64,000 nt of DNA, taken from positions 6,256,028 to 6,320,027 of the forward strand of contig NZ_CP036339.1 of the NCBI RefSeq assembly GCF_007746075.1. The letters run 5' to 3'. Shown here piece after piece: positions 7,057 through 36,438 of the stretch. A program made the translations under genes and the position numbers. The notes below the pieces were generated by a model, which saw only the letters and a program-made list of their open reading frames with translations, had not been told where the DNA came from and made no database searches. This DNA comes from Lacipirellula limnantheis (GTDB lineage: Bacteria > Planctomycetota > Planctomycetia > Pirellulales > Lacipirellulaceae). The first letter of the stretch is position 1. The number at the start of each line of letters is the position of its first letter.

Positions 7057-9897
7057 TTACCAATAAACGTACCGCTGGAACAACTCCCGCTCCTTCGGCG
7101 GCAGCGTCTGCACGTCGGGCACCAGGAACCGGTTGTCGTCGAGGTCTAGCAGCATCTTGCCGCGTTCGCCGAAGTCTTGCACCTGGCTTTGGCTCCAACG
7201 CATCGTGAACCGTCGCGGGCCGTGCGGGGTGCGGACGTCGCAGTGGAGGTGGCCGAGTTCGAGACTGATCGCGTCGACGCCTTCGATCGTTTGCAGGAAG
7301 TAACGGCGATCTAGCGCGGAGCGGACGAGTCGCTGGGCCTCCGCCGGCCACTCGTTCAGGTTGCGGAGGATGCCGATTTCCTGCTGCTCGCCGTCGCGCG
7401 TCCAGACGCGGAGGCTAATGTAATCCTCCGGACTGGTCGCTGGGAACAAATTCACGGCGAATACGCCGCGGAACACCTGATCGTTGGCAAGCACCGCCGT
7501 CATCGTGTCGCGGGCGCCGGCGCAGATTTCGGCGTCGTCCGGCAGCAGCCAGCGCGGCAGGAACTTTTTCGCTTCCAGCGCGGCGTCGTGTTCGGCCGTC
7601 GCCTTCGCTTCATCCGACGGTGCGTCTTCCGCTTTTTCGAGCAAATCATCAATCGACGCCTTGGGCGAAGCCTGCGACTGCAGCCGCACAAGCTTCGCAT
7701 AGCGGCCATTCTCGGCAATGAGCTGTTCGTGGCTCCCTTGCTCGACCAAGCGGCCGCGATCAAACACCAAAATCCGATGCGCGTCGCGAAGCGTCGACAA
7801 GCGGTGGGCGATCGCGATCGTCGTCCGCCCGCGGGTGAGCGCCTTGAGCGCCTGCTGAATCGCCTGTTCGCTCTCGGCGTCGACGCTGCTGGTTGCTTCG
7901 TCGAGCACCAAGATCGGCGGATCGTAGAGAATCGCCCGCGCGATTGAGAGGCGTTGACGTTCGCCGCCCGAAAGGCCGGCGCCGCGCTCGCCAAGCCAGG
8001 TGTCGTACCCCAGCGGCGAGTTGAGGATGAACTCGTGCGACTGGGCCGCCTTGGCCGCGGCGATCGCTTGTTCCTTATCGCTGGTCGGCAGACCGTAAAT
8101 GAGATTGTCCCAGATCGTACCGCGGAACATGAACGGCTCCTGCAACACGACGCCGACTTGCCGACGGAGTTGGTGGGCCGCCAGTTGTCGCACATCGACG
8201 CCATCGACGAGGACGCGCCCTTCGTTGACGTCGTAGAACCGGCAGAGCAGATTCACGAGCGTCGTCTTGCCGCTGCCGCTCTTGCCGACGATGCCGATGG
8301 TCTCGCCCGGTTCGATCGCGAAGCTGACGTCCCGCAGCACTGGCTGGTGCCGCTCGTAGCCGAAGGTCACTTTGTCGAACTCGATCCGTCCCTTCACATC
8401 GGGCAGGTCGACCGGTTCGGCAGGATCGGTCGATTCGACCGGCGTGTCAAGCAGCTCAAACACCCGCTGGCAACCGGTGAGGAAGTTCGTCAGCCAGGTG
8501 GTGAACTGGGAGAGGGTCGCCAATGGCGTGTAGAACATCGCGAGGTACGCGAGAAACGCCATCAGCGAACCGAGCGTCATCTTGCCGGCGAGCACGTCGC
8601 GGCCGCCGACGTACCAGACGATCAAGCCGCCGAGGCTGAAAATCAGCTGCATCGTCGCCGAGAAGGCGGCGGTGGAGTAATCGACGCGGATGCGCGAACT
8701 TCGCAAGTAATCGCTGATCCGGTTAAATCGCTCATACTCGCGCTCCTCCTGTGCAAACGCCTTCACCACGCGGATGCCCGACAGCATGCCGGTCAGCATC
8801 CCAGCCTGCTTGCTGCTGCTGTCCCAGTAGCGGTAATGTTTGGGGTGAACGCGCTTCCAGAAAAACCAGCTGCCGGCAATCACCAGCGGCGCCGGGATGA
8901 GCGTGTAGACCGCCAGCTTCGGGTTGAGCGTGAAGAGCATCACGCCGACCGCCGTCACCTGCACGATCTGCAGCAGGAAGCCGCCGGTGATTTGTTGCAG
9001 CAGGCTCTGGATCACTTCGCTGTCGTAGGCGACGCGGCTGGTGATCGACCCGACCTGATGGCGATCGTAGTAGCCGAGGCCGAGCGTGTGAAGTTTTTCG
9101 ACCAGCTTCGCGCGCAGATCAAAGGTGAGCGCTACCCCCACCCGAGTGGCAAGTCGTCCCTTGGCGAAGTTCACGACGCTTAACACGATGCGAGCGAGCG
9201 CGAGCGCCGAGACGACCGCCAGCAGCGCCGTGAGCAGCGATTGCGGGTCAAGCGTCTTGTCGCCTCCCTTGAGGATGTCGTCGACGAGATACTGCTGCAG
9301 TTTGGGCGGCGCGAGTTCCGCCGCGACCGCGACGAGCATCAGGCCGCACATAATCGCCGCCGTCGCGCGGTAAGGCCACAACATTTGGCCAAGTCGCCCG
9401 ATGATTGCCTTCCGCGGCAAGCAGCGGGGACACGCCTCGCCGGGGGTCGGCAGGCGCTGGCTGCACTTCTCGCAGTGGGTCTTCAGTAACGGCTCGCCAT
9501 CGACCGCCGCAATGGCGCCGGTGGTTCGCAGTTCTTCCAGGCTGCGGGCAACGCGGTGGAAGCGATCGGCTTCAGCGTTGGAGTAGCGAGCCAAGTCGAC
9601 CCAGTGGTCGTCGACGTAGGCTTGCAGGAAGCCGGAACCGACCGCGCCCTGGGTGCGGAACTCCTGCACGTCGCTGACGGACACGTGGCTTTCGACGCGC
9701 GGCGCATGCGGAGTCGCGCCACCCTCAGCCTCTTCCGAGACCGCCGCCACGTTCGCATGGGTGGCGACGATCCAATGCCGCCGCGGCTTCCCGGAAAGGG
9801 ACAGATCGGTGCTAGTCGACAGCAGCACCGGGACCCCGTTGAGTCCCTGAACGTCGAGTTCCTTCTTGACGGCGAGCGGCAATTCTTCGTGGAGCAT
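7057..9897 (-). CDS. ABC exporter with fused C-terminal DUF1854 domain
   Basis: The protein has 946 residues from ATG 9897. In order: an N-terminal cytosolic region of about 140 residues; a zinc-ribbon-like CxxC...CPRC (about 141-160); a six-helix exporter membrane domain (about 180-480); an ABC ATPase with Walker A GKSGSGKTT (about 534-542), signature LSGGERQR (about 641) and Walker B ILVLDEATSS (about 661); then a long linker and a DUF1854-like domain (about 800-946, with a GVFAVNLFPATSPEDYISLRVWTRDGEQQEIGILRNL-type start). In other bacteria DUF1854 is a separate small protein beside a dedicated ABC transporter in cyanophycin-linked loci; here the two are fused. The transported substrate is unknown. 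The frame is open to 10068, but the extra residues cross a repeat. Confidence 0.85.
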   Translation of the reverse strand: MLHEELPLAVKKELDVQGLNGVPVLLSTSTDLSLSGKPRRHWIVATHANVAAVSEEAEGGATPHAPRVESHVSVSDVQEFRTQGAVGSGFLQAYVDDHWVDLARYSNAEADRFHRVARSLEELRTTGAIAAVDGEPLLKTHCEKCSQRLPTPGEACPRCLPRKAIIGRLGQMLWPYRATAAIMCGLMLVAVAAELAPPKLQQYLVDDILKGGDKTLDPQSLLTALLAVVSALALARIVLSVVNFAKGRLATRVGVALTFDLRAKLVEKLHTLGLGYYDRHQVGSITSRVAYDSEVIQSLLQQITGGFLLQIVQVTAVGVMLFTLNPKLAVYTLIPAPLVIAGSWFFWKRVHPKHYRYWDSSSKQAGMLTGMLSGIRVVKAFAQEEREYERFNRISDYLRSSRIRVDYSTAAFSATMQLIFSLGGLIVWYVGGRDVLAGKMTLGSLMAFLAYLAMFYTPLATLSQFTTWLTNFLTGCQRVFELLDTPVESTDPAEPVDLPDVKGRIEFDKVTFGYERHQPVLRDVSFAIEPGETIGIVGKSGSGKTTLVNLLCRFYDVNEGRVLVDGVDVRQLAAHQLRRQVGVVLQEPFMFRGTIWDNLIYGLPTSDKEQAIAAAKAAQSHEFILNSPLGYDTWLGERGAGLSGGERQRLSIARAILYDPPILVLDEATSSVDAESEQAIQQALKALTRGRTTIAIAHRLSTLRDAHRILVFDRGRLVEQGSHEQLIAENGRYAKLVRLQSQASPKASIDDLLEKAEDAPSDEAKATAEHDAALEAKKFLPRWLLPDDAEICAGARDTMTAVLANDQVFRGVFAVNLFPATSPEDYISLRVWTRDGEQQEIGILRNLNEWPAEAQRLVRSALDRRYFLQTIEGVDAISLELGHLHCDVRTPHGPRRFTMRWSQSQVQDFGERGKMLLDLDDNRFLVPDVQTLPPKERELFQRYVYW

Positions 9898-27405: not shown

Positions 27406-27411
27406 TAAAAT
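27406..27411 (+). promoter_or_regulatory. -10 box TAAAAT, leaderless start
   Basis: TAAAAT ends six bases before GTG 27418, too close for a ribosome site. A leaderless transcript is implied. Confidence 0.5.
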
Positions 27412-27417
27412 GAAGAC

Positions 27418-28761
27418 GTGCCCGCCCCACGCTTCCGCCGCTGCTTGTTTTTCCTGATCGCTGCTTGCGTCGCGCTGGTCGCTGCGCCAGTTTCCGCCGC
27501 GGAATCGGGCCCAAAGCTCGGCTCGCTCCTCTTCGTTCCCAGCGACGTCTACAACAGCGCCGGCCCTGCAACGGAGCCAAGCCCGGCCGCCAAAGCTGCA
27601 GCGGCGGCGGCCTTCGAACAAGCCCGTACCGCCGTCGCCGCCGGTGAAGTCAGCCAGGCCTTGCAGCACGCCTGCCGCGCCGTGGCCCTCGATCCGAACC
27701 ACGACGACGCTCGCCGCCTGCTCGGCTACCAGCGCGTCGGCGATCAATGGGCCGGCAAGTACGCACAGCACATGCTCAAAGCCGGCCACCTTTGGAGCCG
27801 CGAGCATGGCTGGATCAAGGCCGACCACGCCGCCAAGTACGATCAGGGCCTCCGCCCTTGGGGCCAGAAGTGGATCACCGTCGCCGAGGATGCCGAGCGC
27901 CACGCCGATATCGAGCATGGCTGGACCGTGCGGACTGATCATTTCCAAGTGGTCACCAACGTCGACCGTGCCGCCGCCGCCGACCTCGCCATCCGCCTGG
28001 AAACGTATTATCAACTCTGGCGGCAACTCTTCGGCGAGCTCGCGCTCACGCCCGCCGAACTGCAAGCACGGCTCGATGGCAAAGAAACCGACGGCTTCCT
28101 CCGCCGGCCGATGAAAGTTGTTTACCACCGCAATCGCGACCAGTACAACGACGCGCTGATTCGCCGCCAACCGCAGATCGCGATGACCAACGGCATCTAC
28201 TTTGACCGCGAGCGCGAATCCCACTTCTTCGCGGGCGACGATCAAGACCCCGGCACGATCGCCCACGAGGCCGTGCACCAGTTTTTCTATGAGTCCGCTC
28301 CCAAACCGACGCGGAATCTCGCTGCCGCCGCGAATGCCTGGGCCGTCGAAGGCGCGGCCTGCTATTTCGAAACGCTCAAGGAGCAGCTGACCGACGTCGG
28401 CCTGGCCTACACCGTCGGCACGCCCGACGCGGGCCGGGTCCAGGCGGCCCGCCACCGCCGGATTGTCGACAACTTCTACGTACCGCTGGCGGAGCTCGAC
28501 GCGCTGGGCGTTACGGACCTCCAGCAGCGTGCCGATCTCGCCCCCCTCTACAGCCAATCCGCTGGATTGGCGTCGTTCTTCATCGATGGCCGCGAAGGCG
28601 AATATCGCCGCCCCTTCCGCGAACTGCTGCGGCTCATTTATGCTGGCAGAGACGAAGCAGGGTCGCTGCCAGAACTGGTTGGCCGGAGCGCCGGGGAACT
28701 CGACCGCGAGTACCAGCAGTTCATGGAAAGCCTCCCCGTCACCGCCGTCCTGGCGCCGTGA
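27418..28761 (+). CDS. Secreted DUF1570-type zinc metalloprotease
   Basis: A 447-residue protein that starts with GTG. The signal peptide (about 1-27, APVSAAES) is followed by a short TPR-like region (EVSQALQHACRAVALDPNHDDARRLLGY), then the DUF1570 domain with H283-E-A-V-H287 in TIAHEAVHQFFYES and the downstream acid in WAVEGAACYFETL. It is likely a periplasmic or outer-surface peptidase of unknown substrate. It is separate in sequence from the 5696 gene despite the shared class. Confidence 0.8.
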   Translation: MPAPRFRRCLFFLIAACVALVAAPVSAAESGPKLGSLLFVPSDVYNSAGPATEPSPAAKAAAAAAFEQARTAVAAGEVSQALQHACRAVALDPNHDDARRLLGYQRVGDQWAGKYAQHMLKAGHLWSREHGWIKADHAAKYDQGLRPWGQKWITVAEDAERHADIEHGWTVRTDHFQVVTNVDRAAAADLAIRLETYYQLWRQLFGELALTPAELQARLDGKETDGFLRRPMKVVYHRNRDQYNDALIRRQPQIAMTNGIYFDRERESHFFAGDDQDPGTIAHEAVHQFFYESAPKPTRNLAAAANAWAVEGAACYFETLKEQLTDVGLAYTVGTPDAGRVQAARHRRIVDNFYVPLAELDALGVTDLQQRADLAPLYSQSAGLASFFIDGREGEYRRPFRELLRLIYAGRDEAGSLPELVGRSAGELDREYQQFMESLPVTAVLAP

Positions 28762-28903
28762 GCAAGGGAAAGTGGCGCCGCTGGCAGGATGCCAGTGCTG
28801 ACGTGGGGACACGCTTCGACACCTCCCACAGGCAACACCGCCAGCGCCCAGCCTTTCCTGAACCCCAACACCCCGAACCTCAAATGCCCCAGGAACCTCC
28901 CCC

Positions 28904-29035
28904 ATGATGCCGCTGTTAGCCCATGTCACCGAGTCCGAATATCCCCTGGGCCTGGCCCTGTTCCTCGGCGGTCTGGGGGCGGGAATCGGCATTGGCGTCG
29001 GGCTCGGGGTCATGAAATACCTCCGCTCCCGCTAG
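28904..29035 (+). CDS. Small glycine-rich membrane protein (43 residues)
   Basis: ATGATG opens a 43-codon frame ending TAG 29033-29035. It encodes a short polar N-terminus (MMPLLAHVTESEYPLG), one transmembrane helix with GxxxG-type spacing (LFLGGLGAGIGIGVGLGV), then MKYLRSR, so the C-terminus is positively charged. This fits a single-pass membrane microprotein. Many planctomycete genomes seem to have similar short proteins. No ribosome site is clear (AGGAACC lies about 14 bases upstream). Its function is unknown. Confidence 0.5.
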   Translation: MMPLLAHVTESEYPLGLALFLGGLGAGIGIGVGLGVMKYLRSR

Positions 29036-29170
29036 GGAGAATTTCCCGAACCCGACCTCCGCAACCCTCCCAGCCCCGGGCTGAAAGTGCCGTACCAGAC
29101 GCAGCAGCGGCCCGCTCGCAGCGTTGACCATCCCCCGCCTCACCGAGTACCATCGAACGCTTCCGCTTGC

Positions 29171-29244
29171 GGTGGCTATAGCTCAATTGGCAGAGCGCCA
29201 GATTGTGATTCTGGAGGTCACGGGTTCGATCCCCGTTAGCCACC
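29171..29244 (+). tRNA. tRNA-His (GUG)
   Basis: The acceptor stem GTGGCTA (29172-29178) pairs with TAGCCAC (29237-29243). An extra G at 29171 faces the C discriminator at 29244, the tRNA-His identity pair. The anticodon GTG is at 29205-29207, and the T arm is CGGGTTCGATCCCCG. The CCA end is not encoded. Confidence 0.97.
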
Positions 29245-29249
29245 CCTCG

Positions 29250-29295
29250 AAGCCCGTCGGCCGACAACGCTTGTCGGCCCGCGGGCTTTTTCTTT
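29250..29295 (+). terminator. Rho-independent terminator of tRNA-His
   Basis: GCCGACAA-CGC-TTGTCGGC forms the upper stem, extended by AAGCCCG / CGGGCTT, and is followed by a run of T. Confidence 0.9.
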
Positions 29296-29423
29296 ACCCG
29301 CGGAGGGAGGATCCCTCGGCGGGAGGCGTCCCTCGTTCTGCCATCCGCCCCCCTTCGGGTATACTCACACTGGCCTTTGCCGCCGCTTTTTCTGAGTCTT
29401 GTCTCCAACTGAAGGGCCCGACC

Positions 29424-30686
29424 ATGCCTGCCCGGTTGTTGCGCGGAATTCTCTGCAGTGCACTCATTGCGTCTGCCGCCACCGTCCATGCCGCTGACGC
29501 TTCCAAGGAAGCGGCCATCAAGGGAACTGCTTCCCCTACGACCCCCGCGGCAGAGACGGCCCCCAGCTCCACCGACCCCGGCGGTTCCGGCCATCGCACC
29601 GTTATTGCCAACGGCGACGTCAACATCCCCGTCGTCGTCGTCCGCGGCACGCCCTACCAAATGGGCTGGCACCTTGGCCGGCTGTGCGCGCCGGAGATGA
29701 AGCACTTCGTCCCCGCCGCCGTGGCAGGCTTCAAACAAGAGCTGCAAGTCGACGACGAAACGCTCGACCGCACCTGGGCCACCACCGCCGGCTACACCGA
29801 TCCTCGCGTCCAGCAGCAACTCGTCGGCGCGGCCGAGGGGAGCGGGCTGCCGATGCGACTGCTGCAACACGTCCATTGCCTGCCGCTGCTGATGCCTTAC
29901 TCCTGCAGTTGCATCTCCGCCTGGGGCGACGCCACCGAAGACGGACACCTCTATCAAACCCGCAACCTCGATTGGGCCCTCGAAGCCGGCGCCCATGAGT
30001 TCCCCGTCCTGATCGTCTATCTGCCGACCGAGGGCGAAGCCCACGTCACGCCGTCGTTCACTGGCTTCTTCGGCGCCCACTGCGGCATGAACGCTTCCGG
30101 CGTGGTCCTCTCCGAAATCGGCGACGCCCCCGCGAAGGAAATGCCGTACAACCTCCACGCCCCCCACTTCACCGCGTGGTTCCGCACGCTTCTCTACGAC
30201 GCCAATTCGCTCAACGAAGCACTCACCCTCTTCCGCCAGACGCCGCAGACGAAGCGCTACCACTTCGTCTTCGGCGACGGCCTCCACGACAAGCGGGCCG
30301 TGAAGATTCGGGTCGCCGCGCCGCTTGGCGAGGAGCCTCAGATCGACATGTGGTCCGACGCGGCGGCCGACGACGAACTCGCTCCCCACACGCTCAGCGA
30401 CCTCGTCTACCACGACGAAGGCCGCGGCGCGTTCCCGACGCTCGAAGCCGAGCGCGGCACGATCAACGGCCCAAGCCTCGTGGCGCTGGCGAACCAGATT
30501 CCCATCAAGGGGGGCAACGTGATGAACGTCGTCTTCGACGCCACCGCGATGCGCCTCTGGGTGAGCTACGCCGGCGGCGACAAAGAAGCCTACCAGCGTC
30601 CCTACCTCATGCTCGACCTGACGAAGCTCGACGCCGACGCCGACGGCCGTCCCGACTGGCCCTCGCCGCGCGTCGCGGCCAAGTGA
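29424..30686 (+). CDS. Exported C45-type Ntn-hydrolase (acyltransferase/peptidase-like)
   Basis: A 420-residue protein with a signal peptide (about 1-23, ATVHAADA). The domain starts VVVVRGTPYQMGWHLGRLCA and holds the family core MPYSCSCISAWGDATEDGHLYQTRNLDW, whose Cys would be the N-terminal nucleophile after self-cleavage, as in acyl-CoA:6-aminopenicillanate acyltransferase relatives. Substrates of exported members are unknown. A possible -10 TATACT lies at 29360-29365. The frame is open upstream through the tRNA gene, but that part is not coding. Confidence 0.8.
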   Translation: MPARLLRGILCSALIASAATVHAADASKEAAIKGTASPTTPAAETAPSSTDPGGSGHRTVIANGDVNIPVVVVRGTPYQMGWHLGRLCAPEMKHFVPAAVAGFKQELQVDDETLDRTWATTAGYTDPRVQQQLVGAAEGSGLPMRLLQHVHCLPLLMPYSCSCISAWGDATEDGHLYQTRNLDWALEAGAHEFPVLIVYLPTEGEAHVTPSFTGFFGAHCGMNASGVVLSEIGDAPAKEMPYNLHAPHFTAWFRTLLYDANSLNEALTLFRQTPQTKRYHFVFGDGLHDKRAVKIRVAAPLGEEPQIDMWSDAAADDELAPHTLSDLVYHDEGRGAFPTLEAERGTINGPSLVALANQIPIKGGNVMNVVFDATAMRLWVSYAGGDKEAYQRPYLMLDLTKLDADADGRPDWPSPRVAAK

Positions 30687-30763
30687 GCGACAGCGCCCGC
30701 ACTGCAGCCTCGCGCGCCAACGGGAGCAATCAGGACTCGTGGCTCGGCGGACGTTCGCGTTTG

Positions 30764-30970
30764 AATTGTCCGCGTGCAAAACGGCCGTCGTCGTGACAAA
30801 ACGTCTGTCGGCAACAGGCTTCGGCGTCGCCAGAGCGGCGTTTTTGGCTCGAAAAGCGCCGCTGGCGACGTCGCGGCGAATTGTCCGCGCCCAGTGGACA
30901 AAACTTGGAGCGAGGGCGCAAATCGCCGGCGTCTGGCGGATGGGTTTGGGCACCGGGCGCGGACAAAACG
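30764..30970. repeat. Structured intergenic island with TTGTCCGCG / GGACAAAAC words
   Basis: A strong hairpin, CGTCGCCAGAGCGGCG (30825-30840) against CGCCGCTGGCGACG (to 30870), has a 2-nt bulge. Around it, TTGTCCGCG occurs at about 30768 and 30880, and its mirror GCGGACAAAAC or GGACAAAAC at about 30897 and 30960. TTGTCCGCGCCC and GGGCGCGGACAA form a 12-bp inverted pair. The gap 30687-31093 has no gene. Confidence 0.6.
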
Positions 30971-31093
30971 TTGGCGTCCGACGGACGCGCGACGGAGGCG
31001 CGGAATGGCCTTCTCCCGTGGGATCGGCAGCGTTCGAGCAGACGCGGCAGTCAGTGAACATGCGACCACCGTAGCAGCTCTGGTGGCCAATTT

Positions 31094-31282
31094 CTAGCGG
31101 GAAGTTTTGGCCACGCCCCCGGCTGCCGTCAGGACTATCACCGCCGCTTCCCCTTTGGCTTGATCTCGGCAACCAACGACGGCGTGATTGCCGCGACCAG
31201 CCAGTTGCTTGGCGATTTCCCAGCCGATGCCGCGGTTGCCGCCGGTGACGAGAACGACTGGCAGTGGTGCGCCAGGTGTCAT
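31094..31282 (-). pseudogene. Truncated short-chain dehydrogenase (N-terminal fragment)
   Basis: This encodes PVVLVTGGNRGIGWEIAKQLAGRG, the Rossmann TGxxxGIG nucleotide-binding motif of short-chain dehydrogenases, then NHAVVGCRDQAKGEAA, and stops after about 62 residues. The YxxxK active site and the rest of the 250-residue domain are missing. It borders the structured island on one side and the accessory region on the other, and is probably non-functional. Confidence 0.75.
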
Positions 31283-31435
31283 GCTCGATGCTACGAGTGG
31301 GTCTGTCTGTGGGTCGGATGTCGTTGAGGCCGCGGCACGAATCGTGGGGCTCCTCGGGGCACTAGACGTGCCGAAAAAGGTGGGACCTGACGTGTGGCTC
31401 AGTGTGCAGCCCGTGGGTGGGGGAAATATCGGGGG

Positions 31436-31636
31436 CTACTCAATTGCCGCGATCAGCACACGTATCATTGGCACGCCGATTCCCAGGCCGATAAGAATGC
31501 CGCAAAACCACTCTACGTCAGTGGTTTTGCGATGCCTCCTCTCGGGATACCTGACCCATCGATACAAGTCGAGTAGCCCGGCAATCACAAAGAGTCCGGT
31601 AGCCGCCGCGAGGATGTATCCATCAAGGGAAGACAT
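31436..31636 (-). CDS. Small two-helix membrane protein
   Basis: A 66-residue protein with helices at about 7-23 (YILAAATGLFVIAGLLDLY) and 46-64 (GILIGLGIGVPMIRVLIAAI), joined by a basic loop RYPERRHRK. TATAAT (complement of 31643-31648) ends six bases before the ATG, so the transcript is probably leaderless. Function unknown. Confidence 0.55.
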   Translation of the reverse strand: MSSLDGYILAAATGLFVIAGLLDLYRWVRYPERRHRKTTDVEWFCGILIGLGIGVPMIRVLIAAIE

Positions 31637-31642
31637 GCTCTC

Positions 31643-31648
31643 ATTATA
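31643..31648 (-). promoter_or_regulatory. -10 box TATAAT, leaderless start
   Basis: A perfect TATAAT on the minus strand, six bases before the ATG of the 31436-31636 gene. Confidence 0.6.
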
Positions 31649-31685
31649 GCTGCCGTCTCGGCGCTCACATTCCCGAACTGGCGGT

Positions 31686-31691
31686 TAAAAT
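31686..31691 (+). promoter_or_regulatory. -10 box TAAAAT, leaderless start
   Basis: In GGCGGTTAAAATGCGCGAC; seven bases before ATG 31699. Nearly the same string stands at 36220-36240. Confidence 0.55.
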
Positions 31692-31698
31692 GCGCGAC

Positions 31699-31740
31699 AT
31701 GGGGCTCGGTGAAGCTCCTGCACTGGGAGGCGTGGCGTGA
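31699..31740 (+). CDS. Possible 13-residue leader peptide coupled to the next gene
   Basis: ATG 31699 directly after the -10 box opens a 13-codon frame (MGLGEAPALGGVA). Its TGA overlaps the GTG start of the 31737 gene as GTGA. No ribosome site serves the downstream GTG, so coupling through this leader is plausible. It is too short to be judged by composition. Confidence 0.35.
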   Translation: MGLGEAPALGGVA

Positions 31741-32099
31741 GCTTTAGACGCAAAGGAAAGGCGTTACATGAAAAAACCCGTGAATGGAGCGAGTGGCTTG
31801 CGAGCGTCGACCAACTAGTAAGTGCGGCCGAAATCCCCTCCTCAGTCTTGGATACCGAGGAGGCTTGGTTGTACTACATCGATCGGACGTACAGTCAAGC
31901 GGGCTACCTCGGCAAAGCCCCGTGGTTCACTGTCGATCTGCTTTCGCACGACCAAGCGGAGGCGGTCTGGTCTTTAATCGGCCGTTGGCTCAAGGACCGA
32001 TGGCCAGATGCTCCTGAATACATGACGCGGCAGCTGCGCGCAACGCACGATCCGAATGCAAACAGAACCCCTGACCCCGGCCGGGAGGCTGGGGGCTAG
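31737..32099 (+). CDS. Hypothetical protein
   Basis: A 120-residue soluble, charged protein (start MSFRRKGKALHEKTREWSEWLA) with a Trp-rich centre (EEAWLYYIDRTYSQAGYLGKAPWFTVDLL). I do not recognise the family. GTG 31737 is chosen by the overlap with the leader peptide stop. The final residues TPDPGREAGG are encoded by a short sequence (about 32070-32101) that recurs after another gene at 36408-36438. Confidence 0.5.
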   Translation: MSFRRKGKALHEKTREWSEWLASVDQLVSAAEIPSSVLDTEEAWLYYIDRTYSQAGYLGKAPWFTVDLLSHDQAEAVWSLIGRWLKDRWPDAPEYMTRQLRATHDPNANRTPDPGREAGG

Positions 32100-32186
32100 G
32101 GCTGCTTCTTTTTCTCTCTACACACATTGCTCTCAACCTCTGTCAGCCGGTGGTGCGGGATTAGGTGTGGCGGGCGGATTCGGGGT

Positions 32187-32192
32187 TAAAAT
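32187..32192 (+). promoter_or_regulatory. -10 box TAAAAT, leaderless start
   Basis: Six bases before ATG 32199. Confidence 0.5.
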
Positions 32193-32198
32193 AGAGGA

Positions 32199-32393
32199 AT
32201 GAGCCTTTTCCGTTTCTGCATGGTAGTATTCGGCCTTGGCCTCACAGTTGGCATGCTAATGCCGGGAACCGGCGTTGACAGTTGGTGTGTGGGCGTTAGA
32301 GATCGCCTTACTGAGCCGCTCGTAGTCCTGGTCGTCGGCTTGGGGCTGTGCATCTTTGCAGCCGCCTGTGTGCCGCTGAAACGCCGTCCGTAG
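32199..32393 (+). CDS. Small two-helix membrane protein
   Basis: A 64-residue protein with helices FRFCMVVFGLGLTVGMLM and LVVLVVGLGLCIFAAACV, separated by a short polar loop (VDSWCVGVRDRLTEP), and ending in KRRP. It has a leaderless-type -10 box at 32187. Only 44 bases separate it from the next small membrane gene. Function unknown. Confidence 0.5.
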   Translation: MSLFRFCMVVFGLGLTVGMLMPGTGVDSWCVGVRDRLTEPLVVLVVGLGLCIFAAACVPLKRRP

Positions 32394-32425
32394 TACACGG
32401 CCGATTGCTTTCCCGCGCCGGCAGT

Positions 32426-32431
32426 TAAAAT
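32426..32431 (+). promoter_or_regulatory. -10 box TAAAAT, leaderless start
   Basis: In GGCAGTTAAAATGCGGCG; six bases before ATG 32438. Confidence 0.55.
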
Positions 32432-32437
32432 GCGGCG

Positions 32438-32608
32438 ATGAAATCACTAAGTGCGTCCATCGTCGTTCTCTCAGCAGCTGTGGTCTTCCACGGTGCCGCC
32501 GTCAGCGAGATCGGCGACGGGAGGGCGGTCCTCTTTATGGTCGGATTTGCCATCGCCTTTGTCGGGCTTGCTGGCTGGTGGGCAGCGATGAAGCAGCCTC
32601 CCTCGTAG
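32438..32608 (+). CDS. 56-residue membrane protein, copy A of a paralogous pair
   Basis: This encodes MKSLSASIVVLSAAVVFHG, a polar centre AAVSEIGDGRAV, then LFMVGFAIAFVGLAGWWAAM and KQPPS. Two transmembrane helices are predicted by eye. A paralogue of identical length lies at 36241-36411 (same MKSLS-SIVVLS start, FHG, AVSE-GD-R and GW-AAM positions). The conserved protein pattern, with many silent differences, argues that both are real genes under selection. It has its own -10 box. Confidence 0.65.
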   Translation: MKSLSASIVVLSAAVVFHGAAVSEIGDGRAVLFMVGFAIAFVGLAGWWAAMKQPPS

Positions 32609-32723
32609 CCTGATCCCGCCCGCGAGCCCGACGCCTAACCCTCTCGCGGCCGCCAGCGACTCCGCCGCCCCTTCCGCTGCTTTAGCGTGTGATGAATGCG
32701 CATAGGACGCCGATCCTGGCATT

Positions 32724-33482
32724 TCAGCAGGCGGCGCGCCGTTGTCCACGTCGAGGAAACGCCAGCGCTGCCACCATCATCAACGTCATGCTCGCCGGTT
32801 CTGGAATGGAGTACTCGACCATGTAGCACTGTACCCAATCCCGTAAACCCCGTGAGTACTCTCCGGGCAGGTCTCTCCATCGCGTAATATTCGGGGTTCC
32901 TCGGCCAATCGCAAATGTTGCGAAGTCCTCGTTGTTTCCCAACTCGCCGCCGTTGCTCGGCTCAAAATACCAATAACCGTCATAGTATGGACTGTAGTAA
33001 CGGTGTGCGCCCCAGGACTCAAAACCGAAGGCAACGCCAGTAATGACAGGTTTGGTACTCTCAGTTCGCCAGAAGAGCTGGCCTGCTTCCGGTCCGGTTA
33101 CCCAACGCCACTCTCCCTCGATCGCGGAGTCGCTTGCGCCCATCCAGACCTGATAGTTGCCTCCTCGTTGGTAAGTGTTGTCGATGAAATCCTGTTCAGC
33201 TTGCGACGTGATGGTGACCAGATGTCCGGGAATGCCTTGGTACGATTTCGCTCCCGCCGCGGCACTTGACTCAGCAAAAGTGCGGGTAGCTGAGCCGAGC
33301 TTAATCAACTCGTAATAATGGCCGTTGGTTGGATTCCGGACTACTGTGTTAAAGATTTCGTAATACTCAAGCGGTTGGGCGGCGATCGGGGCTACCGCTA
33401 CAAAAAAATATTCCGAAGAACACCGCGGTCCAGCAAGCAGCGCGAGGCGCACCCTCAGCGCAAAGAAGTAGTCGCAACACAC
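32724..33482 (-). CDS. PEP-CTERM protein with C-type-lectin-like domain
   Basis: A 252-residue protein. After an unusual N-terminus (GTG start), the region YYELIKLGSATRTFAESSAAA ... GHLVTITSQAEQDFI ... YQVWMGASDSAIEGEWRWVTG ... GEYSRGLRDWVQCYMVEY is the C-type-lectin fold as found in exported bacterial proteins. It ends with the sorting signal: IPEPASM, a hydrophobic run and PRRGQRR. Export and exosortase processing are expected; no exosortase is in the window. The first 35 residues are a poor signal peptide, so the true start may be different. Confidence 0.75.
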   Translation of the reverse strand: MCCDYFFALRVRLALLAGPRCSSEYFFVAVAPIAAQPLEYYEIFNTVVRNPTNGHYYELIKLGSATRTFAESSAAAGAKSYQGIPGHLVTITSQAEQDFIDNTYQRGGNYQVWMGASDSAIEGEWRWVTGPEAGQLFWRTESTKPVITGVAFGFESWGAHRYYSPYYDGYWYFEPSNGGELGNNEDFATFAIGRGTPNITRWRDLPGEYSRGLRDWVQCYMVEYSIPEPASMTLMMVAALAFPRRGQRRAAC

Positions 33483-33553
33483 GTTGGCACATGAAGAGCT
33501 GCCTCAGTTCCTGCCCTTGGCGAAAGTGTGACCCTTGCGGTTTGCGACGTCAA

Positions 33554-33685
33554 CTAAATATCGCCGAGGGCAGCTGTTGCAGATACCCAATGCGTTTCAG
33601 GGCTGCAGGGAACCGGCGCGGCGTCGCTGAAGAGATAGTAGCAAGCGGGCTTGGCCGGCAGCTCTTTGGGTGGTTCGTCTTCCAT
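33554..33685 (-). CDS. Possible 43-residue protein
   Basis: ATG (complement of 33683-33685) opens MEDEPPKELPAKPACYYLFSD-type sequence, ending ALGDI before TAG. Composition is protein-like (acidic, Pro-rich start, aromatic core), but there is no ribosome site or promoter. It lies in the 350-base gap between two PEP-CTERM genes, which otherwise appears empty. Confidence 0.25.
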   Translation of the reverse strand: MEDEPPKELPAKPACYYLFSDAAPVPCSPETHWVSATAALGDI

Positions 33686-33836
33686 GCCAGCCACGATAAC
33701 GGCGGCGCAAAAAACCTACGCTCGCCAATCGTACATCTTGCGGCCAGCGGGCGGGTGGAGCCCAAATCGGAGGCAGGAAACAGGAAATTGTATTGCATTG
33801 GACGCCGGCCGGCCGCACAATGCGGACGCAGGGGCA

Positions 33837-35081
33837 ATGTTAACGGATCGTCTAATGGCAACCTGGTCCTCGTGTAGGAAACGCACGTGCCTTCTTTGGT
33901 GCATCTTATTCTCTCTCACTGGCGGACCAGCGCTGGGGGCTAACGCACGCTTCCTCCCGCTCAACTTCTCCGGCATTGCCGCCCTCTCCGCAGATGGACA
34001 AGTTGTCGCCGGCCGGATCGGTAATGCCAGCGTCCTGTGGACTGAGGCCCGCGGCGTCGAGCGTTTTCCGGTGCCACCTGGCCTGTCGCTGCGCTACGTC
34101 AACGATCTGTCCGGGGACGGAACCACGATCGTTGGCGGCGTCCAAGTCGGTAGCGGGCTAACAGGTCACTACGAACCGTTCCGGTGGACGCGCGAGGGCG
34201 GCTACCAGCTATTAGGGTCTCTGTCGACCGATTGGCTCGACGACGCTTACGCTACTGCAACCTCCTACAACGGCGATGTCATCGTCGGCACCAATCGTAC
34301 CCCTGAAGGCCGCCGAGCCTTCCGCTGGACGCCGGCAACGGGCTTGGTGAACCTCGGCACGCTGGGAACTACCAATCCGTATTACGACCCGTTTAGCGAA
34401 GCCGAAGCAGTCACGGATGACGGCAGCATCACGGTCGGCACCGTCAGCACCGATGAGGACGCGTACTACAAGCCATTTCTTTGGACAGAATCTGGTGGTT
34501 TTAATCTGATCGGCCTTCCCGCAGCCCCTCATCCTGGACCGGGCGGCATTCCAGCTGGAGGCGCGTCGCGAGTATCTGGTGACGGAAAAGTCGTCACCGG
34601 TGCAAGTCAAGTAGTTGGGGATCTAAAGTACTTTAGTTGGACTGCAGAGGGCGGATTCGTGCCGTTGCAAGCCGGTGCAGACATCAACACGGCGATCGCG
34701 AACTCAATCTCCCGCGACGGGTCAACGATTGTCGGCACCGAGATTTTGTGGAACGTTCCTGCACCTGGTAAGACAACGACTCACGCGAGCATTTGGCGAC
34801 TTGCCAAAGACGGTTATCAGTTTGCCAGGGTTGCTGACGTTCTCGCGGCGAGCGGCGTCGATATCAGCGGGTGGCAATTGACGAATGTCTATGGCGTTTC
34901 TGCCGACGGACGCACGCTGTTAGGCATCGGAGTGGACCCTCAAGGAATTAATCGCGCGTGGTACGCAGTCTTGAGCGTTCCCGAACCTGCCGCCGGCGCG
35001 ATCGCAGCCATTGCCGTCTCGATGACGGGTTGCGTTGCGAACATGCGTCCCTCGCGCCGCCTTCGCCGCCCGCAGGGATGA
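33837..35081 (+). CDS. PEP-CTERM protein with HAF-type beta repeats
   Basis: About 414 residues from ATG 33837 (ATG 33855 is also possible). The signal region is CLLWCILFSLTGGPALGA. It has at least seven repeats of the pattern S-x-D-G-x-x-x-x-G (ALSADGQVVAGRI, LSGDGTTIVGGV, VTDDGSITVGTV, VSGDGKVVTGAS, ISRDGSTIVGTE, VSADGRTLLGIG). Each is typical of HAF-repeat beta-propeller-like exported proteins. It ends VPEPAAGAIAAIAV plus a basic tail, the PEP-CTERM signal. It is predicted to be exported and surface-associated. Confidence 0.8.
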   Translation: MLTDRLMATWSSCRKRTCLLWCILFSLTGGPALGANARFLPLNFSGIAALSADGQVVAGRIGNASVLWTEARGVERFPVPPGLSLRYVNDLSGDGTTIVGGVQVGSGLTGHYEPFRWTREGGYQLLGSLSTDWLDDAYATATSYNGDVIVGTNRTPEGRRAFRWTPATGLVNLGTLGTTNPYYDPFSEAEAVTDDGSITVGTVSTDEDAYYKPFLWTESGGFNLIGLPAAPHPGPGGIPAGGASRVSGDGKVVTGASQVVGDLKYFSWTAEGGFVPLQAGADINTAIANSISRDGSTIVGTEILWNVPAPGKTTTHASIWRLAKDGYQFARVADVLAASGVDISGWQLTNVYGVSADGRTLLGIGVDPQGINRAWYAVLSVPEPAAGAIAAIAVSMTGCVANMRPSRRLRRPQG

Positions 35082-35132
35082 GGGAGGGGGCATCGTTCAT
35101 CTAGCTGCCCAGCAATTCGCTTGGATTGTGTT

Positions 35133-35381
35133 ATGCCTTTCCCGTGGACCAACTTTAAGCTTTGGAAGCTACTTGCTCTCGCCGCCTTGCCAGCCCTGAC
35201 GATCGGATTGTGGCTTGCAATACCGGCTTACTTCCAATCGCTAGATCCATTGCTGCTCACCCCACGCGAGCACGACGCCACAGCACGCAGGCTTTTGGCT
35301 GGCGGTGGTCTCACTTTTGCCGGGTTTATATTGGCGTTCCTCGCTCGCCTCTTTGTGTCGATTGAGCGGGGACCGCGCTAG
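35133..35381 (+). CDS. Small two-helix membrane protein
   Basis: An 82-residue protein (ATG 35133; a TTG four codons earlier is possible). Helices are LLALAALPALTIGLWLAIP and LLAGGGLTFAGFILAFLARLF, with the loop LTPREHDATARR between them. Function unknown. It lies among other short membrane genes. Confidence 0.45.
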   Translation: MPFPWTNFKLWKLLALAALPALTIGLWLAIPAYFQSLDPLLLTPREHDATARRLLAGGGLTFAGFILAFLARLFVSIERGPR

Positions 35382-35419
35382 TTGCTTCATGCCGATCGCG
35401 TCTGATTGACCAGAGCCAC

Positions 35420-35701
35420 TCATGGAGTGAAGCGGGGGCGGGGCATGGTGATAGATTTTATCACTCGCCAAAGTTGGCCAGCCGCGCCGGACGATGCTGA
35501 TACGGCTCGTCCATCATCGTCGGCGGCCAGCGAGCGAAGCGACGCCCTAAAGATCCCGGCGATAATGGCGACCACGGCCGTCACTGTCAGCAAACGACGG
35601 ACCGTGAATCTCTCGGGCATGGCCCAGCGGCAGAGCGACCCGGCGGCAATGAGCACCAAGCCGTCGATGAGTAGCGTCAAGATGAACCTCGGTCCGTTCA
35701 T
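35420..35701 (-). CDS. Small membrane protein with planctomycete RFTVR-type helix
   Basis: 93 residues from the ATG at 35701 (a second ATG lies at 35710). The first helix is FILTLLIDGLVLIAAGSL; then RFTVRRLLTVTAVVAIIAGI, a basic start plus helix that I recognise as a recurring planctomycete motif (RFSLR-x-LL...T-x-VA). The gene at 35758 ends in the same motif. The -10 TATCAT on the minus strand lies seven bases before the 35701 start. Confidence 0.5.
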   Translation of the reverse strand: MNGPRFILTLLIDGLVLIAAGSLCRWAMPERFTVRRLLTVTAVVAIIAGIFRASLRSLAADDDGRAVSASSGAAGQLWRVIKSITMPRPRFTP

Positions 35702-35708
35702 GTCACTC

Positions 35709-35714
35709 ATGATA
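35709..35714 (-). promoter_or_regulatory. -10 box TATCAT, leaderless start
   Basis: Minus-strand TATCAT, seven bases before the ATG at 35701. Confidence 0.4.
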
Positions 35715-35744
35715 GCGGGCGGGGAAGTCGCCTGCGAACTCCGC

Positions 35745-35750
35745 TATACT
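35745..35750 (+). promoter_or_regulatory. -10 box TATACT, leaderless start
   Basis: Seven bases before ATG 35758. Confidence 0.5.
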
Positions 35751-35757
35751 AGCGGCC

Positions 35758-36207
35758 ATGCTCACCTACGTCCGCTACGCCCTGGCGACTATTTGCTTCG
35801 CGGCGAGCGTTGCTTGTTTGGCGTTGTGGTGCGACACCATCTTGGACGAACGCCGCTTGAGCGTTAGCTACGTCTCCACGTCGTTAAACGTAATGCTTCA
35901 TGCGGCGGACGGAATCGGAAATATCCAGCTGAGCCGAAGTCGACTTGGAACTAGCGTCGTCGGTGAGTGGCGATTTACGTCCTCCCATTTCAGCGGCCGT
36001 GCTAGCCAGCTTCATTGGACCGGCGGTCATGAGGGCGCGCTCGGTCGCACTCGTACCGGCGTCTTTTTTCCGTTATGGTACGCAGCTCTCCTCTTCGCGC
36101 TCGCCGGCGTTGCCTCCTTACGAGTCGGCCGCCGCTTTACGCTCCGCTCGGCGATTATCGCCACGACCGTCGTGGCTGGGCTGTTGGGGATGGCGGTGAT
36201 TCTGTAG
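35758..36207 (+). CDS. Membrane protein with N- and C-terminal helices
   Basis: A 149-residue protein. Helix 1 is LATICFAASVACLALWC. A beta-rich extracytosolic part follows (LSRSRLGTSVVGEWRF). Two closing helices are WYAALLFALAGVASL and, after RRFTLR, SAIIATTVVAGLLGMAVIL. This plan is frequent among uncharacterised planctomycete proteins. Leaderless-type -10 box at 35745. Confidence 0.6.
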   Translation: MLTYVRYALATICFAASVACLALWCDTILDERRLSVSYVSTSLNVMLHAADGIGNIQLSRSRLGTSVVGEWRFTSSHFSGRASQLHWTGGHEGALGRTRTGVFFPLWYAALLFALAGVASLRVGRRFTLRSAIIATTVVAGLLGMAVIL

Positions 36208-36227
36208 GAAGACGACCTGGGGGCGGT

Positions 36228-36233
36228 TAAAAT
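36228..36233 (+). promoter_or_regulatory. -10 box TAAAAT, leaderless start
   Basis: In GGCGGTTAAAATGCGGGAC; seven bases before ATG 36241. Confidence 0.55.
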
Positions 36234-36240
36234 GCGGGAC

Positions 36241-36411
36241 ATGAAATCACTCAGCTCTTCCATTGTCGTCCTATCGTCGGCAATAATCTTCCACGGCTCC
36301 GCTGTCAGCGAGTCGGGGGATGCACGGGTGTTCCTCTTTATGATTGGATTCGTGATCGCCTTCTTGGGACTTACCGGCTGGAGGGCGGCGATGGCGCAGT
36401 CCACTTCCTGA
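36241..36411 (+). CDS. 56-residue membrane protein, copy B of a paralogous pair
   Basis: This encodes MKSLSSSIVVLSSAIIFHG, then SAVSESGDARVF, then LFMIGFVIAFLGLTGWRAAM and AQSTS. It is the same length as, and clearly homologous to, the 32438-32608 protein. Even the promoter string before the start is shared. The sequence following its stop (CCACGGCCGGGAGGCTTGG) recurs near 32074. Function unknown. Confidence 0.65.
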   Translation: MKSLSSSIVVLSSAIIFHGSAVSESGDARVFLFMIGFVIAFLGLTGWRAAMAQSTS

Positions 36412-36438
36412 CCACGGCCGGGAGGCTTGGAGCTAGGC

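Follow-up and report, generated by a model that had tools for sequence, protein, structure and literature searches.

A TANNNT box some 12 bp before the start marks leaderless genes (PMC3160421, PMC12340547). Promoters that consist only of a -10 element occur at leaderless genes in Deinococcus and in mycobacteria (PMC12340547, PMC3898074, PMC3160421), and leaderless expression is usually viewed as a genome-wide trait of a lineage. For the single planctomycete that it covered, a comparative study reported a signal of the leaderless or S1 type (PMC5397173), and our literature search turned up no account of leaderless islands in planctomycetes. We analyzed a stretch of 64,000 nucleotides (positions 6,256,028-6,320,027 of the main contig) from the 6.83 Mb genome of Lacipirellula limnantheis, referred to as the window, together with further islands of small genes. 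Judged from the sequence, the anatomy of the island promoters resembles that of the published -10-only leaderless promoters (PMC12340547, PMC3898074, PMC3160421). We consider it likely that -10-only promoters give rise to leaderless mRNAs here, and that they are used mainly in small-gene islands as compact expression frames.

An earlier note had proposed eight -10-like boxes in the window, each 6-7 nt before a start, and direct reading of the letters found all of them at these places. On the plus strand, TAAAAT boxes at 27406-27411, 32187-32192 and 32426-32431 are followed after 6 nt by GTG 27418, ATG 32199 and ATG 32438, respectively. Those at 31686-31691 and 36228-36233 are followed after 7 nt by ATG 31699 and ATG 36241, and TATACT at 35745-35750 lies 7 nt before ATG 35758. 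The minus-strand boxes are TATAAT at 31648-31643, divergent from the 31686 box and 6 nt before ATG 31636, and TATCAT at 35714-35709, 7 nt before ATG 35701. As had been pointed out, such a gap leaves no room for a Shine-Dalgarno (SD) site. The claim that four starts share GGC-GTTAAAATGCG was reduced to three, since only 31680, 32420 and 36222 share GGC[G/A]GTTAAAATGCG; the 32199 start carries GGGGTTAAAATAGAGG instead. For counting, all ATGs that start an ORF of 40 codons or more were used with all box distances, and a good box was defined as at least 4 of 6 matches to TATAAT. Counts were centered on starts, as the gene caller used initially proved overly stringent for short genes. Between 31 and 41 kb of the window, 9 good boxes were found at gap 6-7 vs 0.5 expected (P about 6e-9), and the remainder of the window contained 3 vs 0.8 expected (P 0.05). 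Several unlike box types, TAAAAT, TATACT, TAGAGT and TATCGT, hold the same gap to ATG.

The window is syntenic with the same-genus genome G003 from 24.3 kb to just past tRNA-His (29,172-29,246), where synteny ends. The small-gene region after the tRNA therefore looks accessory, and 29172-29300 is a likely insertion or rearrangement point. The first boxed gene lies outside the island. It is a core gene (27418..28761, plus) encoding a 447-aa DUF1570-like protein (weak match); of 13 genomes searched, 11 have an orthologue, its own included. TAAAAT, the 6-nt gap and GTG recur in the orthologues from G003 (78% identity) and G002 (66%), with changed letters in the gap. Thus the leaderless-type mode does not appear to be exclusive to accessory genes: single core genes seem to use it, and GTG is possible.

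Within the island, a 66-aa gene with a leaderless-type start (31436..31636, minus) is followed by the type A promoter module GGCGGTTAAAATGCGCGAC (31680..31698, plus; box 31686-31691, 7-nt gap). This module precedes a leader ORF of 13 codons (31699..31740, plus), whose TGA overlaps GTG 31737 (GTGA). The 120-aa gene starting there (31737..32099, plus) is SD-led, with GGGAGG, a good SD, 6 nt before its GTG, so that the leader ORF alone would be leaderless at this locus. It ends inside the 3' hairpin module CTGACCCCGGCCGGGAGGCTGGGGGCTAGG (32071..32100, plus) with a PDPGREAGG tail. The following 64-aa gene (32199..32393, plus) has dN 0.51 and dS 2.5 against its paralogue at L043 8366. Another type A module region, GATTGCTTTCCCGCGCCGGCAGTTAAAATGCGGCG (32404..32437, plus; box 32426-32431, 6-nt gap), leads a 56-aa gene (32438..32608, plus), a paralogue of the 36241 gene (dN 0.18, dS 1.36). 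Type B is represented by a divergent promoter (35699..35760) with TATCAT on the minus strand (35709-35714) and TATACT on the plus strand (35745-35750). It lies between a 93-aa gene starting MNGPRF with a leaderless-type start (35420..35701, minus) and a 149-aa membrane protein of family F1 (35758..36207, plus), conserved at its ends and variable in the middle. Finally, the type A module GGCGGTTAAAATGCGGGAC (36222..36240, plus; box 36228-36233, 7-nt gap) and a diverged copy of the 3' module (36408..36437, plus) enclose a 56-aa gene (36241..36411, plus), and the TGA of the 3' module is its stop. The window also contains a C-type lectin gene with a PEP-CTERM-like tail (32724-33482, minus), which has near copies at L031 8250 and L039 7836 (both minus). 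Repeated stretches inside islands, at L035 ~9109 and at L036 ~6347 and 17125, appear to be copies of a short-chain dehydrogenase gene or its remnants (recognized by eye only), and window 31094-31282 (minus) is possibly another.

The proposed count of boxes against background gave a clear answer on the genome scale. The islands (248 kb) contained 101 boxes at gap 6-7 vs 13 expected (P 4e-53), a count that is inflated by paralogues in stretches chosen partly by one motif. Gap 6 accounted for 47 and gap 7 for 54 of these boxes, vs 6.6 per gap elsewhere. After removal of all sites resembling the search motif, 61 boxes remained vs about 11 expected, and 39 vs about 11 when similar promoters were collapsed as well. 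A clear island excess survives both corrections. Background, about 520 kb of ordinary genome stretches, had 14 boxes at gap 6 and 9 at gap 7 vs 9.1 expected per gap, hence no significant excess (23 vs 18). The same was observed in G003, where islands had 6 boxes at gap 6 and 23 at gap 7 vs 3.3, and background showed no excess (4 and 5 vs 3.6). SD motifs in the source genome had an excess of about 17 in islands vs about 76 in background, and the island value is small against the box excess of 93. SD starts are frequent in the G003 islands too, so these islands appear to mix both modes. GTG and TTG starts showed no box excess. ATG-only usage was considered as support for the leaderless reading and dropped; SD-type starts are equally ATG-biased here. 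The shared expression mode that had been suggested for short accessory genes was right and, if anything, understated, as many of them share promoter and 3' hairpin.

We aligned 70 distinct promoters on the box. The T, the A and the last T were imposed by the search; A was preferred at position 4, and at the two places before the box where an extended -10 promoter has TG, G occurred at -2 in 67% and T at -3 in only 24%. A -35 element was sought as a common hexamer 15-19 nt before the box, and no conserved column was found upstream of the box over the 70 promoters; single promoter classes carry TTGCAT. Among the 43 type A starts, the 12 columns ending at the box were mostly 80-100% conserved, vs ~30-50% right after the ATG; 24 of these starts have gap 7, 14 gap 6 and 3 gap 8. 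Two promoter types drive divergent gene pairs. Type A pairs span 63-66 bp from ATG to ATG (63 bp for 31636/31699 in the window), with copies in L031, L034, L036 and L037. Type B pairs, such as 35701/35758, span about 57 bp, with copies in L031 and L037. L033 18861 (plus), a ferredoxin-like gene (Fer4_13, E 6e-7), is found on the divergent side of a type A module.

As a control, the membrane protein family F1 was used. It has 56 matches in the source genome, 16 in G003 and 10 in the same-genus genome G004, many of them partial, and no Pfam family matched it. Its N-terminal and C-terminal membrane segments are conserved and the middle is highly variable (alignment A1). TANNNT was found at gap 6 or 7 in 25 of 57 F1 starts over the three genomes, and almost never at other distances. 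An upstream stop within 30 nt, a cut-off chosen after inspection, was present at 17 of 31 boxless vs 2 of 25 boxed starts (P 2e-4). Boxless starts thus mostly lie close behind an upstream stop, and the box therefore appears to mark the first gene of a transcription unit in F1, as expected of a promoter.

Many island genes share a frame. The 3' module CTGACCCCGGCCGGGAGGCTGGGGGCTAGG has 29 copies in the genome and 0 in a reversed control. At most copies, an ORF that opens 5-8 nt past a GGCGGTTANNAT box runs up to the module, the promoter module of framed units being GGCGGTTARAAT, 5-8 nt and ATG. The ORF stops either at the module's own TGA, whose last base lies 7 nt before CGGGAG, or, after read-through of the module, at its TAG; in the latter case unrelated proteins share the tail PDPGREAGG. 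Over two genomes, 27 units of 34-160 aa have both modules, and among them are two homologous pairs only. Their products differ in kind and include membrane proteins as well as soluble ones, zinc-ribbon-like proteins among the latter; Pfam is of little help with the small proteins. G003 has its own set of framed units with other ORFs, and its subclass GGCGGCGGTTAGAATGGGCGGCATG precedes four unrelated genes. The framed ORFs appear to be coding where this is testable: dN/dS was well below 1 in several island gene pairs, and one pair, L039 7046 with L040 10971, was near 1. The 3' hairpin folds into a stem of 8 bp capped by a GGGA loop, and its stability does not significantly exceed that of shuffled sequence; that it acts as a terminator is a guess. 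Among 60 genomes searched, the module was found in the source genome and one same-genus genome only. A scan of public bacterial genomes and viral contigs, from which records near the source genome were possibly excluded, gave no match.

What could otherwise place a box so close to a start? The promoters might be ordinary ones whose transcripts begin further downstream or upstream, with closeness to the ATG reflecting short-intergenic packing only. Island genes are indeed tightly packed, and in single cases, 31737 for example, transcription beginning within the coding region would agree with a real start further downstream. We regard this as unlikely, as the gap peaks sharply at 6-7 across many unlike promoters, paralogue alignments start at the M after the box and SD sites are scarce at boxed starts. 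Still less can be said for the true start being the ATG inside TAAAATG, with the box as part of the coding region, to which we give hardly any credence. A gap of 7 does put the inner ATG in frame (36232, and likewise 35710 in TATCATG). However, it is out of frame for the type A starts with gaps 6 and 8, and an ATG is missing from most other box types. These in-frame ATGs within the boxes of 36241 and 35701 were listed as ORF starts and are probably annotation traps, because paralogues of 35701 have no upstream ATG and gaps 6 and 7 give different frames. The leaderless reading of the boxed starts is well supported by the sequence data.

The origin of the frames is a separate matter. Unrelated small ORFs between constant flanks recall integron cassette arrays, in which case GTTARAAT would be a recombination-site core and not a promoter. 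GTTARAA resembles GTTRRRY, and the genome does contain a true integron, with an IntI integrase over the curated cut-off (438.7 bits, G000:C1:1027730-1028680) followed by a typical attC array (L073, L074). This is the only IntI match over the cut-off, at 1.028 Mb, with one island copy about 30 kb away and the others far; outside 1.03 Mb no integrase exceeded the cut-off. Moreover, attC-like hairpins occur at 0.07 per kb in islands, compared to 0.10 in background and 0.59 in the integron array. The variants TTACAAT, TTACGAT and TTAAGAT hold TANNNT and not GTTRRRY, other box types hold the same gap, and units are found in either orientation and also form divergent pairs. The integron array itself showed no box excess at gap 6-7. 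Island frames as integron cassettes were rejected, with no attC enrichment in the islands, and we consider this reading very improbable. A single attC-like hairpin, GCCTAAC...GTTAGCC, was seen inside an island away from the integron (L036 ~7418-7546, minus). A weightier alternative is that the frames are ordinary gene families, leaderless and without cassette exchange. Genes would have been duplicated with their flanks and coding regions would have diverged beyond recognition, with promoter and hairpin kept alike by constraint or gene conversion. Paralogous pairs and families are numerous, small membrane proteins are common among the products, and F1 with its conserved ends and variable middle fits such a course, which we rate as a serious contender somewhat short of an even chance. 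Against it stand the scarcity of homologous pairs among the 27 framed proteins, the different kinds of protein that they comprise and the drop of conservation at the ATG itself. More tentatively, and with doubts prevailing, we propose a non-integron cassette system, in which a start-fused promoter and a stop-fused hairpin form constant ends and unrelated small ORFs are captured and exchanged between them. Each captured ORF would then at once be a complete leaderless gene without need of a ribosome-binding site.

Our favored explanation, leaderless expression from -10-only promoters, would work as follows. In roughly a hundred small island genes the box is so close that the message is expected to open with the start codon. 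Sigma70-type -10-only promoters would start transcription at the start codon or no more than about 2 nt from it, and translation of the resulting leaderless mRNAs would need no SD site. The main place of use would be the islands of small accessory genes. There, the promoter module abuts the ATG and, in one class, the hairpin module abuts or supplies the stop codon. The same frame holds unrelated ORFs, and 57-66 bp of control DNA is common to both genes of divergent pairs. Inner genes of tandem runs have no box and lie right behind an upstream stop, and they therefore probably rely on read-through transcription and translational coupling. Recombination may have spread the frames. Box position, island enrichment, common frames, unrelated contents and coding constraint in several pairs can be read from the letters themselves.

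Two initiation modes appear to coexist in one genome, each in its own compartment: SD-type in ordinary genes and promoter-at-start-codon in the islands. With this pattern it can be tested whether leaderless promoters make new or foreign ORFs easier to adopt, which they could do because the expression signal consists of nothing but promoter and start codon. In addition, the start- and stop-fused frames offer a simple sequence handle for unannotated small proteins in the genus.

Leaderless promoters as such are already known; their confinement to accessory islands and the cassette-like frame are undescribed as far as we found. The island genes are like the TA-led genes of Deinococcus-Thermus and Actinobacteria (PMC3160421, PMC12340547, PMC3898074) in having TANNNT ~12 bp upstream, no conserved -35 and no SD. 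However, TA-led genes occur genome-wide in those groups, whereas here they are concentrated in planctomycete accessory islands and ordinary genes have no excess. With integron gene cassettes the units share unrelated small ORFs, constant flanks and several arrays per genome, but they have no attC enrichment and no neighboring integrase, occur in both orientations and carry their own promoter each. Early accessory (anti-defense) genes of archaeal viruses (PMC11065993) are likewise small, mostly unrelated and preceded by one highly conserved promoter. Those genes form a virus regulon with a repressor, whereas the units described here lie in chromosomal islands with the promoter fused to the ATG and a common 3' hairpin. 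Finally, bacterial bidirectional promoters (PMC10268837) also transcribe divergently from one short stretch. In contrast to them, the island promoters have their own box for each direction, 6-7 nt before the ATG, within 57-66 bp from ATG to ATG.
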